Shown here piece by piece: positions 51,687 to 59,706 of a stretch of 64,000 nucleotides of DNA. The translations under genes and the position numbers were made by a program. Each line of letters opens with the position of its first letter. Position 1 is the stretch's first letter. A model generated the notes under the pieces. It was not told the origin of the DNA. It was given only the letters and a program-made list of their open reading frames with translations, and did not search any database. Source of the stretch: Alphaproteobacteria bacterium (GTDB lineage: Bacteria > Pseudomonadota > Alphaproteobacteria > ATCC43930 > CGMCC-115725); NCBI GenBank assembly GCA_028871055.1, contig JAGWON010000003.1:1-64000 (forward strand), given 5' to 3'.

Positions 51687-52802
51687 TCAATAGCCCGGAT
51701 GGCTGAGATCGAGCAGCGGGAAGGCCGACAGCACGTGTGGCGGATAAACCGGCGGTGCCGCGATCACCATCTCGCGCTTGAGTTCGGCGTAGCGCGTCGC
51801 GCCCAGCAGGCCGAGGCACATGCGGATCTCGGTCTCAAGCAGCTCGAGCACCCGAAGCACGCCGGCGTCGCCCGCAGCGGCTAGGCCATAGCAATAGAGC
51901 CGGCCGATGCCGACCGCGTCGGCACCCAGCGCCAGCGCCTTGACCACGTCGCTGCCGCGGCAGAAGCCACCGTCGACGACGATGCGCGCGCGCCCCTTCA
52001 CCGCCGCCGCCACCTCGGGCAGGACGTCGATCGCGCCGCAGCCGTGGTCGAGCTGGCGGCCGCCGTGATTCGAGACGTAGACGACCGCCGCGCCGAGCTG
52101 GCAGGCGAGCTCGGCGTCCTCGGCGGTGACGATGCCCTTGAGGATGATCGGGATGTCGTGCCTGGCCTTGAAGCGGGCGACGTCGTCCCAGTCGAACGCC
52201 GCCTGGAAGCGCTCCATCTCGGCCACCACCTGGCCCCGGCCGCCGATGACATAGCGCTTGGCGATGTCGCGCTCGCGCCTGCTGTACAGCGCGGTGTCGA
52301 CGGTGAAGCAGAAGGCCTCGTAGCCATTGTCGATCGACCGCCGGCCGTAATCGTCGACCCACTCCATGTCGCCGCGCACGTAGAGCTGGAAAATCCGGCG
52401 GCAAGCCGGCGCGGCCTTGGCGGTCGCCTCGAGTCCGGGCTTGGCGACCGAGCTGACGACCATCGGCACGCCGAACGCGGCAGCGGCGCGCGCGACGGCG
52501 GCGGTGCCTTCGGCATTGAGATTCTCGATCGAGCCGATCGGCGCTAGCACGACGGGCAGCCGCGCCGGCTTGCCGAAGACCTGTGCCGTGGCGTCGACCC
52601 GCGACACGTCGCGCAGCACACGCGGCCGGAAGCCGAGGCTGTCGAGCGCCAGTCGGTTGCGCCGGATCGTGGTCTCGCTCTCGGCCGCGCCGGTGAGATA
52701 ATCCCAGAAATTCGTCGGCAGGGCGTTGCGCGCTGCACGGACGATCTCGTGCAGCGTGGCGTAGCGCCCGCCGAGGCCGCTGTCGGCCGTCGTTTCGGTC
52801 AT
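51687..52802 (-). CDS. FMN-dependent alpha-hydroxy acid dehydrogenase/oxidase
   Basis: 371 residues. Family motifs are FWDYLTGAAESETTIRRNRLALD, LPVVLAPIGSIENLNAEGTAAVARAAAAFGVP, the catalytic VYVSNHGGRQLDHGCGAIDVLPE (His-Gly-Gly-Arg) and VVDGGFCRGSDVVKALALGADAVGIGR. It oxidises a 2-hydroxy acid such as lactate, glycolate or mandelate using FMN. The exact acid cannot be fixed. The ATG overlaps the upstream hydrolase stop (ATGA), so the pair is coupled. Confidence 0.92.
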   Translation of the reverse strand: MTETTADSGLGGRYATLHEIVRAARNALPTNFWDYLTGAAESETTIRRNRLALDSLGFRPRVLRDVSRVDATAQVFGKPARLPVVLAPIGSIENLNAEGTAAVARAAAAFGVPMVVSSVAKPGLEATAKAAPACRRIFQLYVRGDMEWVDDYGRRSIDNGYEAFCFTVDTALYSRRERDIAKRYVIGGRGQVVAEMERFQAAFDWDDVARFKARHDIPIILKGIVTAEDAELACQLGAAVVYVSNHGGRQLDHGCGAIDVLPEVAAAVKGRARIVVDGGFCRGSDVVKALALGADAVGIGRLYCYGLAAAGDAGVLRVLELLETEIRMCLGLLGATRYAELKREMVIAAPPVYPPHVLSAFPLLDLSHPGY

Positions 52803-54559
52803 TTGGATTTCCTTTGCCGGATCGGCCGCGCCGGAATGACCGGCAGCAGCAGGTAGGGTGCCGCGCCGGCACCGAAATGCAGCGTGGTGCGGCCGCCGAA
52901 GAGCGCAACCGGCCGGTCGCGCGGATCGTCGTGCACGAACGGGCCGCAGCCGCGCATCGGATGTTTCATGTTGGAGAGCCGGGCCGGCAGGCCGGCATGT
53001 TCGTAGTCGCGGCCGCGCACCGACAACCCCAGGCGATAGCCCTTGGGCACGACGATCGAGGTCGGCCACAGCTCGATGTCGAGCGTCACCGAGCGGCCGG
53101 GCTTCAACGGCTCGATCCGATCGTGCGTGTGATAAGGCCGCCAGCGGCGAGTGAGACGGCGGTCGAAGCGGCGGTGCGAGGCGCGCAGCCAGCCCTGCGC
53201 CACCGGCGTGTGCGGATCGAGCGCGCCTTGGAACGCGACCTCCTTGCCGGCCGGATCGAACAGCAGCAGCACCAGAAACAGATCGGCATCGGCGGTCGAG
53301 GACGCGACGACGAGCCTCGCGGCGACAGGCCCAGTGATCTCGGTCTCGCGATCAACCGGCTCGGACATGAAGGTGATGCCGTCGCCGAGCGCGGCGAATT
53401 CGAGCGCGGCCTTTTTCCGCGCCGGCGTCGTGCCGAGCGTCAGGTCGGGCCGGAGGTGGAGCTTGGTCCAGCGCGTGCGCTTCAAGGGCCATTCCTTCTC
53501 GAAGCGCTCGACGAAGCGGTCGACGTGCCGCACTTGGAGCCGCACCCTCGGCTCCTTGTCCCAGCCGTTCTTCTCGCCTTTGAGGAAATAGCCGAAGAAG
53601 CGCTTCTGCAGGCCGACGCCGTAATCGGTGTAGAACTCGACCCAGTGCGTGCCGCCGTGGGCCTCGAGCCATTTGTGCCGCGACGCCGCGCGCGTGAAGG
53701 CCTCGAAGTTGCCGCGCGGATGCAGGCCTTGCCCGCCCCAATTCGCCGCCGACAGGAACGGCACCGTGACCTTGTCCCAGCGCGCCGAGCGCGCCCGGTG
53801 CCAGGCATCGTCGAGCGGATGCGCGAGGATGTCGTTGCCGAAGTCGCGGCGGTTGGCGGCGAGCTCGGCCTCGCTCAGCGTTTCCGGGCCGCACACCAGA
53901 TCGCCGGTGATGGCGCTCTTCGGGCCGCGCGCGCCGAGCCCGTGCTGCACCGACTTCACCTGCATGTCGTACCAGCTGGCCCAGAAGGTCGACAGGATGC
54001 CGCCGTGATGGCTCGCATCGCGGTAGAAGTCGGCAGAGCCCTCCCAGGCGCAGATCGCCGCCAGGTGCGGCGGCCGCCGCGACGCCACGGTCCACGCATT
54101 CATCGCGTAGTACGAGATGCCGTTGATGCCGACCTTGCCGTTGCACCAGGCCTGGCGCGCGACCCATTCGATGCAGTCGTGGAAATCGCGGCTCTCGCGC
54201 GGCGAGAAATGGTCGATGGTGCCAGGCGAGCGGCCGGCGCCGCGCGAATCGACGCGCACACAGGCATAGCCGTCGGGCACCCATTTCTCGGGATCGGCGA
54301 CCTCCCAGTTCTGGTACTTGTTCGACGAACCCGCGGTCACGTCGGGATGGTTCTTCGCCATGATCTCCCAGGCGGTCGGATAGCCGTCCTGGAACGCGAG
54401 GCCCTTGGCGTAGGGTCCATAGGTCACGATCGCCGGCACCTTGCCGGCGTCGGTCGGGCGGAAGACATCGGCGCGCAGTATCACGCCGTCGTTCATCGCG
54501 ATCGGCACATCCCAATCGATGTGCATGCCGTCACGGATTTCGTTCTGCGCCCCTGTCAT
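52799..54559 (-). CDS. CocE/NonD family hydrolase (X-Pro dipeptidyl-peptidase-like acyl hydrolase)
   Basis: 586 residues. The alpha/beta-hydrolase core (about 15-340) has VRVDSRGAGRSPG, the nucleophile elbow VGINGISYYAMNAW (Ser near residue 142) and GGTHW with the likely catalytic His. The C-terminal jelly-roll domain spans about 360-580. Members hydrolyse esters or amide bonds such as cocaine or beta-lactam side chains. The natural substrate here is unknown. GGGGAGG precedes ATG 54559. It is divergent from the ABC transporter and coupled to the FMN oxidase gene, suggesting one degradative step after another. Confidence 0.9.
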   Translation of the reverse strand: MTGAQNEIRDGMHIDWDVPIAMNDGVILRADVFRPTDAGKVPAIVTYGPYAKGLAFQDGYPTAWEIMAKNHPDVTAGSSNKYQNWEVADPEKWVPDGYACVRVDSRGAGRSPGTIDHFSPRESRDFHDCIEWVARQAWCNGKVGINGISYYAMNAWTVASRRPPHLAAICAWEGSADFYRDASHHGGILSTFWASWYDMQVKSVQHGLGARGPKSAITGDLVCGPETLSEAELAANRRDFGNDILAHPLDDAWHRARSARWDKVTVPFLSAANWGGQGLHPRGNFEAFTRAASRHKWLEAHGGTHWVEFYTDYGVGLQKRFFGYFLKGEKNGWDKEPRVRLQVRHVDRFVERFEKEWPLKRTRWTKLHLRPDLTLGTTPARKKAALEFAALGDGITFMSEPVDRETEITGPVAARLVVASSTADADLFLVLLLFDPAGKEVAFQGALDPHTPVAQGWLRASHRRFDRRLTRRWRPYHTHDRIEPLKPGRSVTLDIELWPTSIVVPKGYRLGLSVRGRDYEHAGLPARLSNMKHPMRGCGPFVHDDPRDRPVALFGGRTTLHFGAGAAPYLLLPVIPARPIRQRKSK

Positions 54560-54695
54560 TTTCGTTCCTCCCCCGCCGCGTCCCGACCGCCGGCAAAATC
54601 GGCTTGCCGGCCGGGGCGAGATGATACAGTTTCCCGCCGCGGCCGCCACAACGGGGTTGGTCGAAAGACGGACGGCGGGAGACTAAAGGCGCGGC

Positions 54696-55520
54696 ATGGC
54701 GCGTAGCAAATCGGGGCCGGGCGCCTTGGAGGGCGGCGCGCTGTTCTCTTGGCGTGGGCGCAGCGTGCGCCGCGGCCTGACGGCGCTCGTCGTCGTCCTG
54801 GTTGGCTGGGAGATCCTCGGCCGCACGGTGCTCGACAATCCACTGTTCTTCGCGCCGCTGTCGCAGGTCGCGCTCGCCGCCGTCAAGCTGTGGCAGTCGG
54901 GCGAGCTGCCGCGCGACATCGCGGTGAGCTTCACCGAGCTCGCCTACGGCATGGTGGCGTCGGTGATCGTCGGCGTCGTCATTGGCGTGCTGCTCGGCAT
55001 CAGCCAGCGGCTGCGCGATTACACGGAACTGTTCATCATCGCGCTCTATGCCACGCCCCTGGTGGCGGTCGCTCCGCTGCTGATTCTTTGGCTCGGGATC
55101 GGCGTCGTCTCGAAAGCGGCCGTCGTATTCCTGACCGCGGCCTTCCCGGTGCTGATCAACACCGCCGCCGGCGTGCGCGGCGCCGACGCGCAACTGGTCG
55201 AGGTGGCGCAAGCCTTCGCCGCGACGCGCGCGCAAGTTGTGCGCAAAGTGCTGGTGCCCGCCTCCGTGCCGTTCATGCTGACCGGCGTGCGGCTGGCCAT
55301 CGGCCGCGGCATCGTCGGCGTCGTCGTCGGCGAGTTGTTCGGCGCGCGCGCCGGCCTGGGCTATCTCATCTTCACCGCCGGTCAGACCTTCGACGTGCCG
55401 TCGCTGTTCGTCGGCGTGCTGACCCTGGCGCTGGTGGGCGTCGGGCTGACGCTCGCGGCCGCCGCGGTCGAGCGCCATGCGTTGCGCTGGCGGCGGCCGG
55501 CCCTGGACGCCACGCCATGA
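54696..55520 (+). CDS. ABC transporter permease, NitT/TauT (SsuC) family
   Basis: 274 residues with about six helices. The permease EAA-like loop is VEVAQAFAATRAQVVRKVLVPASVPFMLTGVRLAIGRG, typical of SsuC/TauC. It forms the membrane channel of an importer for a sulfonate-, nitrate- or similar small molecule. It is followed by the ATPase and binding-protein genes on the same strand. Its stop overlaps an ATG (55517) of the next, damaged gene. Confidence 0.92.
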   Translation: MARSKSGPGALEGGALFSWRGRSVRRGLTALVVVLVGWEILGRTVLDNPLFFAPLSQVALAAVKLWQSGELPRDIAVSFTELAYGMVASVIVGVVIGVLLGISQRLRDYTELFIIALYATPLVAVAPLLILWLGIGVVSKAAVVFLTAAFPVLINTAAGVRGADAQLVEVAQAFAATRAQVVRKVLVPASVPFMLTGVRLAIGRGIVGVVVGELFGARAGLGYLIFTAGQTFDVPSLFVGVLTLALVGVGLTLAAAAVERHALRWRRPALDATP

Positions 55521-56282
55521 GCGCGCGGCAGCCGTCACGATCGACAACCTGGGCATGCGCTTCGCGGCGGCCGACGCGGCGCACGATGTCTTCAGCGGCG
55601 TCAACCTGACGATCCAGCCCGGCGAGTTCTTCGTCATCGTCGGCCCGTCGGGCTGCGGCAAGACCACTTTGCTGCGGATCGTTCAGGGGCTGATCCAGCC
55701 GACCTCCGGCCGCGTCCTAGTCGGCGATGTACCGATCACCGGTCCAGGCACCGACCGCGGCTTCGTTTTTCAGCAGGACTCGCTTTATCCGTGGCGGACG
55801 GTCGCGGCCAACGTGGTGTTCGGACTCGAGCTCCAGGGCGCCGCGCCGGAAACCGCGCGCGCCCGCGCGCGACAGCTGATCGAGCTGGTCGGCCTCGCGG
55901 GCTACGAGCTGCACTATCGCACCAGCTGTCGGGCGGCATGCGCCAGCGCGTCAATCTGGCGCGCGCCATGGCGATCGAGCCGCAGATCCTGCTGATGGAC
56001 GAGCCCTTCGCCGCGCTCGACGCGCTGACCCGCGCGGCGATGCAGCAGGAACTGCTGCGCATCGTCGCCGCCGCCAAGACGACGGTGATCTTCATCACCC
56101 ACCAGATCGAGGAGGCGGTGCTGCTCGCCGACCGCGTCGCGGTGATGAACGCGCGTCCGGGCCGGATCAGACGGATGCTGACGATCGACTTTCCCCGGCC
56201 ACGCGATCCGGCTATCAAGCGAAGCGTGCCGTTCCAGGAATACGCCGGTGAACTCGAAGGGCTGATCGGCCATGCCGATTGA
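55517..56282 (+). pseudogene. NitT/TauT-type ABC transporter ATPase, frameshifted near 55918
   Basis: The first part reads VTIDNLGMRFAAADAAHDVFSGVNLTI and Walker A GPSGCGKTTLLRIVQGL, with Q-loop FVFQQDSLYPWRTV. It then leaves frame after GLAGYELHY. The next frame resumes exactly with HQLSGGMRQRVNLARAMA (signature), ILLMDEPFAALDALTR (Walker B) and VIFITHQIEEAVLLADRV. Adding one C between TAT and CGCACC at 55918 restores TAT CCG CAC CAG and one protein. The ATG at 55517 (ATGA overlap with the permease) is also one base out of frame with VTIDNLG, so a second indel near 55530 is possible. Either a decayed gene or base errors. Confidence 0.85.
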
Positions 56283-56303: not shown

Positions 56304-57290
56304 ATGGGATTCCACGAGCATAACGGCGCGGTGAAGCGCATCCTGCTTGCGGCGGCGATCGCCGCCGGCATGTCGGCCGGCCATTCGGCGCAGGCGCTCG
56401 AGCCGCTGGCGATGACCTACGTTCCCGCCAACGCCGTCTATTGGGATCTCGACGTCGCCATCGAGCGCGGCTTCTTCCGCGACGAGGGCTTTTCGCCCTC
56501 GATCGTCTCGATGCAATCGTCGCCCGGTGGCATCCAGGAAGCGGTCGGCCATTCGGTCCAGCTCGCCGGCGGCTCGCCCGAGCCGTCGATCGAGGCCTAT
56601 GAACACGGCGCGACCGATATCGGTTTCATCGGCGCGCCTGTGCGCGGCGTCGACTGGACGCTGAACGTCTTGCCATCGATCAAGTCGCTCGCCGACCTCA
56701 AGGGCAAGACCATCGGCGTGTCGGCGATCAAGGGCGGCGAGCTCGCATTGACGCGCGCGCTGCTCGCCAAGGGCGGACTCAAGCCGGGCGACTACGATGT
56801 CATCCAGGTCGGTGTGTCGCCGCTGAAGCTGGCGGCGATGAAGCGCGGCTCGATCGCCGCCGCGGCGCTCTTCCAGCCGTCGGGCCTGCTCGCCCGGAAG
56901 ATCGGGTTTCCGGTGCTGATCGATTTCACCACCGTACCCAGCTATCCCTATCCGACCTATACCGTCGGGCGCAGCTGGGCGCACGCGCAAAACAACGGCA
57001 AGCGCCTGGCGCGCGCCATCGTGCGGGCACAGAAATGGCTGGCGGACCGGCACAATCGCCAGGACGCCATCGCCGTCCTCGGCAAATACACCAAGTCGAC
57101 GCCCGATATCCTGAACGCCACCTACGACATGTATTTCGTCAAGCCCAAGATCATGGACGGCGACGGCAAGCTCGACCTTGCCGGCATGCGCCGCCTGCTG
57201 GCGATCATCAAGGCGCAGGGCGATCTTTCCGGCACGCCCGATCCTGGGACGTTCGTAATTCCGGCGGCCGATGGCGGGCTCTACCGCTAG
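56304..57290 (+). CDS. ABC transporter substrate-binding protein, NitT/TauT type
   Basis: 328 residues. A signal peptide ends near GHSAQA (residue 31). The periplasmic-binding fold of the SsuA/TauA/NMT1 kind is shown by DLDVAIERGFFRDEGFSPSIV, SGGSPEPSIEA-like LAGGSPEPSIEAYEHGATDIGFIG and LADLKGKTIGVSAIKGGELALTRALLAKGGL. It captures the ligand of the permease/ATPase encoded just before it. The ligand is unknown. GGGAGG precedes the start. Confidence 0.9.
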   Translation: MGFHEHNGAVKRILLAAAIAAGMSAGHSAQALEPLAMTYVPANAVYWDLDVAIERGFFRDEGFSPSIVSMQSSPGGIQEAVGHSVQLAGGSPEPSIEAYEHGATDIGFIGAPVRGVDWTLNVLPSIKSLADLKGKTIGVSAIKGGELALTRALLAKGGLKPGDYDVIQVGVSPLKLAAMKRGSIAAAALFQPSGLLARKIGFPVLIDFTTVPSYPYPTYTVGRSWAHAQNNGKRLARAIVRAQKWLADRHNRQDAIAVLGKYTKSTPDILNATYDMYFVKPKIMDGDGKLDLAGMRRLLAIIKAQGDLSGTPDPGTFVIPAADGGLYR

Positions 57291-58674: not shown

Positions 58675-59706
58675 ATGATCCGAATTCGTCATGCCGCTGT
58701 CGCCTGCGCCGCCGCCGTCGCCATCGCGTCGATTGCCGCCGCTGGCGCGCAGGCCCAGAGCCCGCTCCCGATCAACGTTGGCTGGGTGCAGACGCCCGGA
58801 CACTTGGCGCCGCTGCTCGACGCGCTGGCGCAGAAGCACCCGGAGGTCATGCCGCACGACGGCAAGACCTATATCGCAAAGGCCCTCCGCTTCAAAGGCA
58901 CGACGCCCCAGATCGAGGCGATGGCGGCCAACGAGCTCGAGGTCGCCTCCTTCGCGCCGTCGGCGCTGGCGCTCGCCATCACCAACGCGCACCTCGACGT
59001 GCGCGTCGTCTCCGACGTCATCCAGACCGGCGCCCACGGCTATTTCGATCAGCCCTACATGGTCCGCAAAGACGGACCGATCAAGACGATCGCCGACGTC
59101 AAGGGCAAGCGCATCGCCACCAACACCGTCGGCTCGGCGAGCGACGCCGCGATGCGCGTGATGTTCCACAAGCACGGCATTCAGGACAACCAGTTCACCA
59201 CCGTCGAGGCTAATTTCGCCAACATGGTCTCGATGATCGAGGACAACAAGGTCGACCTGATCGCCGTCATGCCGCAGTTCGAGCACCGGCTGGCCGTGGC
59301 CGGCAACTACCGGACGCTGTTCACCATGGGCCAGGCCATCGGCCCGTCGCAGACGGTGCTATGGGGGATGCGCGCCGACTTCATCAAGGCGCACCGGGCC
59401 GTGATGGTCGATTTCTTCGAGGATCACATCCGCGGCGTGCGCTGGTTCCTCGATCCGAAGAACCACGCCGAGGCGCTGACGATCGCCGAGCAGGTCACCA
59501 AGCAGAAGCCCGAGGACCTGGCCTATGCCTTCACCAAGAAGGACTTCTACCGGTCGCCCGATTGCAAGCCCAACATCGCGGCGGCGCAGGCGGACATCGA
59601 CGAGGCGGTCAAGCTCCACGTCCTGCCGAAGGCGGTGAAGCTCGAGCCGAAATACGTCGATCTGTCGCTGATCGAGGACGCCAAGCGCCGCATCGACGGC
59701 AAATAA
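58675..59706 (+). CDS. ABC transporter substrate-binding protein (second, unlinked to permease)
   Basis: 343 residues. A signal peptide ends near AGAQAQS (residue 28). The fold resembles TauA/SsuA-like periplasmic proteins (INVGWVQTPGHLAPLL, IKTIADVKGKRIATNTVGSASDAAMRVMFHKHGI, FANMVSMIEDNKVDLIAVMPQFEHRL). No permease or ATPase gene follows, so it either serves the importer 2 kb upstream or is an orphan. A strong GGGGAGGAT precedes the ATG. Confidence 0.88.
   Translation: MIRIRHAAVACAAAVAIASIAAAGAQAQSPLPINVGWVQTPGHLAPLLDALAQKHPEVMPHDGKTYIAKALRFKGTTPQIEAMAANELEVASFAPSALALAITNAHLDVRVVSDVIQTGAHGYFDQPYMVRKDGPIKTIADVKGKRIATNTVGSASDAAMRVMFHKHGIQDNQFTTVEANFANMVSMIEDNKVDLIAVMPQFEHRLAVAGNYRTLFTMGQAIGPSQTVLWGMRADFIKAHRAVMVDFFEDHIRGVRWFLDPKNHAEALTIAEQVTKQKPEDLAYAFTKKDFYRSPDCKPNIAAAQADIDEAVKLHVLPKAVKLEPKYVDLSLIEDAKRRIDGK

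Follow-up and report, generated by a model that had tools for sequence, protein, structure and literature searches.

A single-base frame break in an SsuB/TauB-like ABC importer ATPase gene of an alphaproteobacterial draft genome: consensus error or very recent inactivation

Results and discussion

The ATPase gene of an ABC importer, located between the genes for the permease and the substrate-binding protein, contains a single frame change between positions 55917 and 55920. All positions without a contig prefix refer to the window, the stretch of 64,000 nucleotides of contig JAGWON010000003.1 that was analysed as a whole. Related loci carry the gene uninterrupted, and residues and codon usage are preserved on both sides of the break. 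Two explanations come into question for the break: a flaw in the consensus, to which we lean slightly, or inactivation in the very recent past. The same pair of readings, very recent decay or assembly error, had been put forward in the initial annotation and is supported here. The locus consists of the following parts.

54696–55520, plus strand: ABC importer permease, intact, 274 aa (Pfam PF00528, E 3.7e-29; orthologues in loci L010, L029 and L030)
55477–55995, plus strand: open frame with the N-terminal portion of the ATPase (homology over 55534–55917; Pfam ABC_tran positions 2–96; translation)
55517–55520, plus strand: ATGA overlap of the permease stop codon and an out-of-frame ATG (sequence and frame check; ATGA also in L010 and L029, in frame there)
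55918–55919, plus strand: frame break; the alignment shows one base fewer here than in three orthologues; switch of the codon model at 55925
55920–56282, plus strand: C-terminal part of the ATPase in another frame (Pfam ABC_tran positions 106–137; 64–69% identical to three orthologues)
56304–57290, plus strand: substrate-binding protein (NMT1/SsuA-like), intact, 328 aa (Pfam PF13379, PF09084)

Family membership and gene neighbourhood

The N-terminal part of the ATPase matches PF00005 at positions 2–96 (E 8e-18), so that the half with Walker A and Q-loop is present, while the C-terminal part matches positions 106–137 (E 1.7e-9) and supplies the half with the LSGG signature, Walker B and the switch histidine. 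The two halves are thus complementary parts of ABC_tran, which has 137 profile positions in all. Translation confirmed the earlier statement that both halves retain their motifs: we take GPSGCGKTT to be Walker A and FVFQQD the Q-loop region in the N-terminal part, and LSGGMRQ, LLMDEPF and FITH to be the signature, Walker B and the TH switch, respectively, in the C-terminal part.

The best family matches of both halves are importer ATPases of the SsuB/TauB/NrtD type (NCBIfam PRK11248 for taurine, SaoA and ntrCD). The gene order permease, ATPase, binding protein is the same as in L029 and L030. Unlike ATPases of this type, the gene in the window is split by a one-base break, and its halves fall far below the equivalog cut-offs. 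For PRK11248 they score 118.6 and 110.4 against a cut-off of 357 bits, a whole-protein threshold that half a protein can hardly reach, and for SaoA, with each half scored alone, 108 and 110.9 against 360 bits. The permease yielded matches of the SaoP/TauC/SsuC type in NCBIfam, again below the cut-off. Judged by its best matches, the broken gene belongs with the ordinary ABC importer ATPases of the SsuB/TauB-like kind; with each half this far below the cut-offs, no substrate is assigned. We find no novel feature in it.

A second, distinct SsuA/NMT1-like substrate-binding protein is encoded on the same strand about 1.4 kb downstream (58675–59706); between it and the importer lies a gene for a CobW-type GTPase in the opposite orientation. 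On the other side, a hydrolase of the X-Pro dipeptidyl-peptidase S15 family (52799–54649, minus strand) is divergent from the importer operon. A promoter scan yielded no promoter-like sites. Three terminator-like sites were found compared to 1.4 in shuffled sequences, none of them bearing on the break.

Evidence for the frame break

The sequence at 55915–55925 reads TAT CGCACCAG, matching its earlier quotation. Together with the following eight bases, this string occurs once in the window when up to two mismatches are allowed. The stretch from VTIDNLG to GLAGYELHY lies in one frame (open at 55477–55995), and the stretch from HQLSGGMRQ to GHAD in another (55791–56282); GLAGYELHY shares the frame of 55477 and 55534, HQLSGGMRQ that of 55791 and 55920. 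The frame of the N-terminal part continues past the break to a stop codon at 55993–55995, and the gene does not form one continuous frame of about 250 residues.

In a DNA alignment of the window with three orthologues, a one-column gap is present in the window only, directly after the TAT at 55915–55917. A codon-usage model without homology input places the frame switch at 55925 and the beginning of the ATPase coding region at 55522. The model was fourth-order and three-periodic and was trained on this genome, with the window included in the training set. The alignment bears out the claim of the initial annotation that one base is missing at 55918; the codon model is an independent signal of the break.

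Both halves keep their motifs and their constraint, as a recoded gene would, and programmed −1 ribosomal frameshifting could in principle yield a full-length ATPase from the two frames. However, the break occurs in none of the three orthologues, and homology leaves only about 55918–55919 for the shift. The bases at 55912–55923 (CAC TAT CGC ACC) lack any X XXY YYZ heptamer, with no base repeated more than twice in a row, and no slippery heptamer was found at the shift site on inspection of 55905–55930. We therefore regard programmed frameshifting as highly improbable, and give equally little credence to a full-length ATPase made through a frameshift of an unrecognised, non-canonical type immediately upstream of the LSGG signature. 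It is exceedingly improbable that two separate half-proteins form a split ATPase. Both halves are indeed open frames with intact motifs, but in the frame of the C-terminal part the first ATG, GTG or TTG from 55860 onward is ATG 55938, already past the LSGG signature. The upstream start GTG 55791 would add 43 unrelated residues, and none of the three orthologues is split. Recoding and a split protein are thus unlikely: no slippery site is seen, the break is not conserved, and the second half has no suitable start codon.

Comparison with related loci

The closest locus, L010, was found in genome G019 and shares 74% DNA identity with the window over permease and ATPase. Among the named genomes three loci were found. 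Two were treated as orthologues, L029 (Rhodospirillales bacterium) and L030 (Burkholderiaceae bacterium), both from named metagenome-assembled genomes; the third, L031, has 25% identity and was not used. The gene length in relatives had been suggested as a check: in L010, L029 and L030, the gene after the permease encodes the ATPase without interruption, with 258, 255 and 272 residues, respectively. A binding protein with 40–41% identity to that of the window follows the ATPase in L029 and L030. In L010, the first open reading frame of 150 residues or more beyond the ATPase is encoded on the opposite strand and appears unrelated on visual inspection, and no binding protein like that of the window is among the open reading frames listed for this locus. 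The other-strand frame (L010:3084–4253) resembles a phosphate-binding protein by eye.

At E ≤ 1e-60, the permease has a match in two of the 39 genomes searched within the family, namely in this genome itself and in G019. None of the three other genomes of the same genus (listed completeness 100, 96 and 85%) has a match at this threshold, so that the locus seems dispensable in the genus, a point in favour of a real deletion. No second copy of the ATPase gene was seen elsewhere in the genome, the next match by E-value being 70% identical over 549 bases. Eleven other places in the genome match the C-terminal part at E ≤ 1e-20, with no stop codon inside, which likewise fits a real deletion. None of the titles seen in the literature addresses this question; this concerns those titles and is not a claim of absence from print.

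Constraint on the broken gene

Over 240 gap-free columns, the ATPase of the window has 8 lineage-specific residues (one in the N-terminal and seven in the C-terminal part), compared to 13 in G019, 15 in L029 and 15 in L030. An excess of changes at conserved residues, which would mark a pseudogene under relaxed selection, is therefore not seen in these columns. The corresponding values for 260 columns of the permease are 8, 15, 16 and 22. Such counts are lowered for the window and G019, the nearest pair of the four in the permease, yet G019 still has more than the window.

The identities to L029 and L030 are close to those of the intact orthologue of G019: 50.8 and 54.8% for the N-terminal part of the window's ATPase, versus 50.4 and 44.1% for G019. 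For the C-terminal part they were 64.2 and 66.7%, versus 68.4 and 65.8%. Between window and G019, the protein identity is 61.7% for the N-terminal part, 69.2% for the C-terminal part and 66.1% for the permease. The G + C content at third codon positions is 0.875 in both ATPase halves, 0.909 in the permease and 0.869 in the binding protein. The broken gene thus bears no clear trace of relaxed constraint. Differences from G019 at second codon positions amount to 0.227 in the N-terminal and 0.171 in the C-terminal part, which is higher than in the permease (0.151), and a slight loosening in the N-terminal part is conceivable from these values.

Start of the ATPase gene

The initial annotation had also suspected a second frameshift at the gene start. 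The ATG at 55517 is indeed out of frame with VTIDNLG: it lies 17 nt before the GTC of this motif, and translation from it would reach a stop after 30 codons. The second frameshift was not established, though, since an in-frame ATG is available at 55477, within the permease gene, from which the present sequence is open. Another in-frame ATG is present at 55555, and a start there would remove the first strand. In L010 and L029, the ATPase can start at the ATGA overlap with the permease stop codon. In L030, the open reading frame begins upstream of the permease stop (4752 versus 4789), which makes 55477 possible as the start in the window. A second frameshift is possible but unproven, and would be real only if 55517 is the true start.

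Frame breaks in the rest of the genome

The genome is a draft of 33 contigs. In the part scanned (contigs C16, C19, C5 and C8; 807,275 of 3,072,200 bases, or 26%), which contained 780 coding segments, abrupt frame switches on the same strand were flagged nine times. The detector recovered 117 of 150 planted one-base insertions or deletions. A first coding model, based on the longest open reading frames, had learned shadow frames and was discarded. The model retrained on 457 kb including the window gave 21 rows when run on 457 kb, most of them judged ordinary gene ends. On 807 kb, a start-codon filter left three rows and dropped the switch at 55925, apparently due to the downstream ATG 55968, while tightening the first rule gave the nine rows used here.

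Three of the nine were accepted by eye: 55925 in the ATPase gene, C16:89616 and C19:237028. The second affects a chromate-transporter gene (PF02417; C16:89208–89781, corresponding to L035:5208–5781, minus strand), whose halves match profile positions 2–41 and 41–163 and whose shift is opposite in sense to that of the ATPase gene (one base more, or two fewer). The third break (C19:236598–237143, plus strand) is probable; its second frame spans only 95 bp, and Pfam gave no match at E ≤ 0.001 for its first part.

Among the remaining switches, C16:137450 was rejected as one open frame of biased composition, and C16:199877, C19:18693, C19:154277 and C19:332310 as what appear to be normal genes that adjoin or overlap each other. 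C16:198164 was rejected on the same grounds as a judgement call. At C16:198164 and C16:199877, no start codon lies within −90 to +30 of the switch; C16:199877 has an ATG further on. Frame breaks are rare in the part of the genome examined, and the break in the ATPase gene is isolated there rather than one of many indel errors.

Consensus error or real mutation

Frameshift artefacts and recent pseudogenes both occur in draft bacterial genomes. Like these, the gene in the window has a single isolated one-base break with its other residues kept, and no feature distinguishes it from them. We give about an even chance to the reading that one base is missing through a consensus or assembly error, in which case the living cell would carry an unbroken gene and a working importer of permease, ATPase and binding protein. 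All three orthologues read through the site, and the ATPase of the window has fewer lineage-specific residues than any of them. Its near-equal identities to L029 and L030 in comparison with G019, the matching third-position G + C content of the two halves and the draft state of the genome point the same way. A local consensus flaw accounts more easily than decay for an otherwise well-preserved gene with one one-base break and perhaps a second 400 bp away, and the error is slightly favoured for this reason. If 55517 is the ancestral start, two breaks 400 bp apart in an otherwise little damaged gene stand against three accepted in 807 kb, which poor local consensus explains better than decay.

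On the other hand, the missing base adjoins a run of at most two bases in the nearest orthologue and no long homopolymer. The low background, given the sensitivity of the detector, indicates a sequence of good overall quality, which counts against an error. No accepted break lies in a clearly essential gene, as real pseudogenes would also look.

A real, very recent single-base deletion that inactivated the ATPase has somewhat less than an even chance. The importer would then be dead or using another ATPase, with decay barely visible yet. The frame break is present in the sequence and the genome has few others, as expected for a real deletion, but clear signs of relaxed constraint are lacking and permease and binding protein are intact. 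If the start is shifted as well, it would moreover be odd for a gene with so few substitutions to have been hit twice.

Implications for the importer

Taken together, the finding is mostly a matter of annotation hygiene: gene callers will annotate the locus as a pseudogene or as a truncated ATPase, and this sequence by itself is no reason to count the transporter as lost. Some importers share ATPases. That the importer would lack its ATPase, as initially proposed, was not established: it requires the break to be present in the living cell, and given ATPase sharing and the eleven other matches to the C-terminal part, it would not follow at once even from a real mutation. If the break is indeed present in the cell, the importer would have been caught at the very start of its loss.
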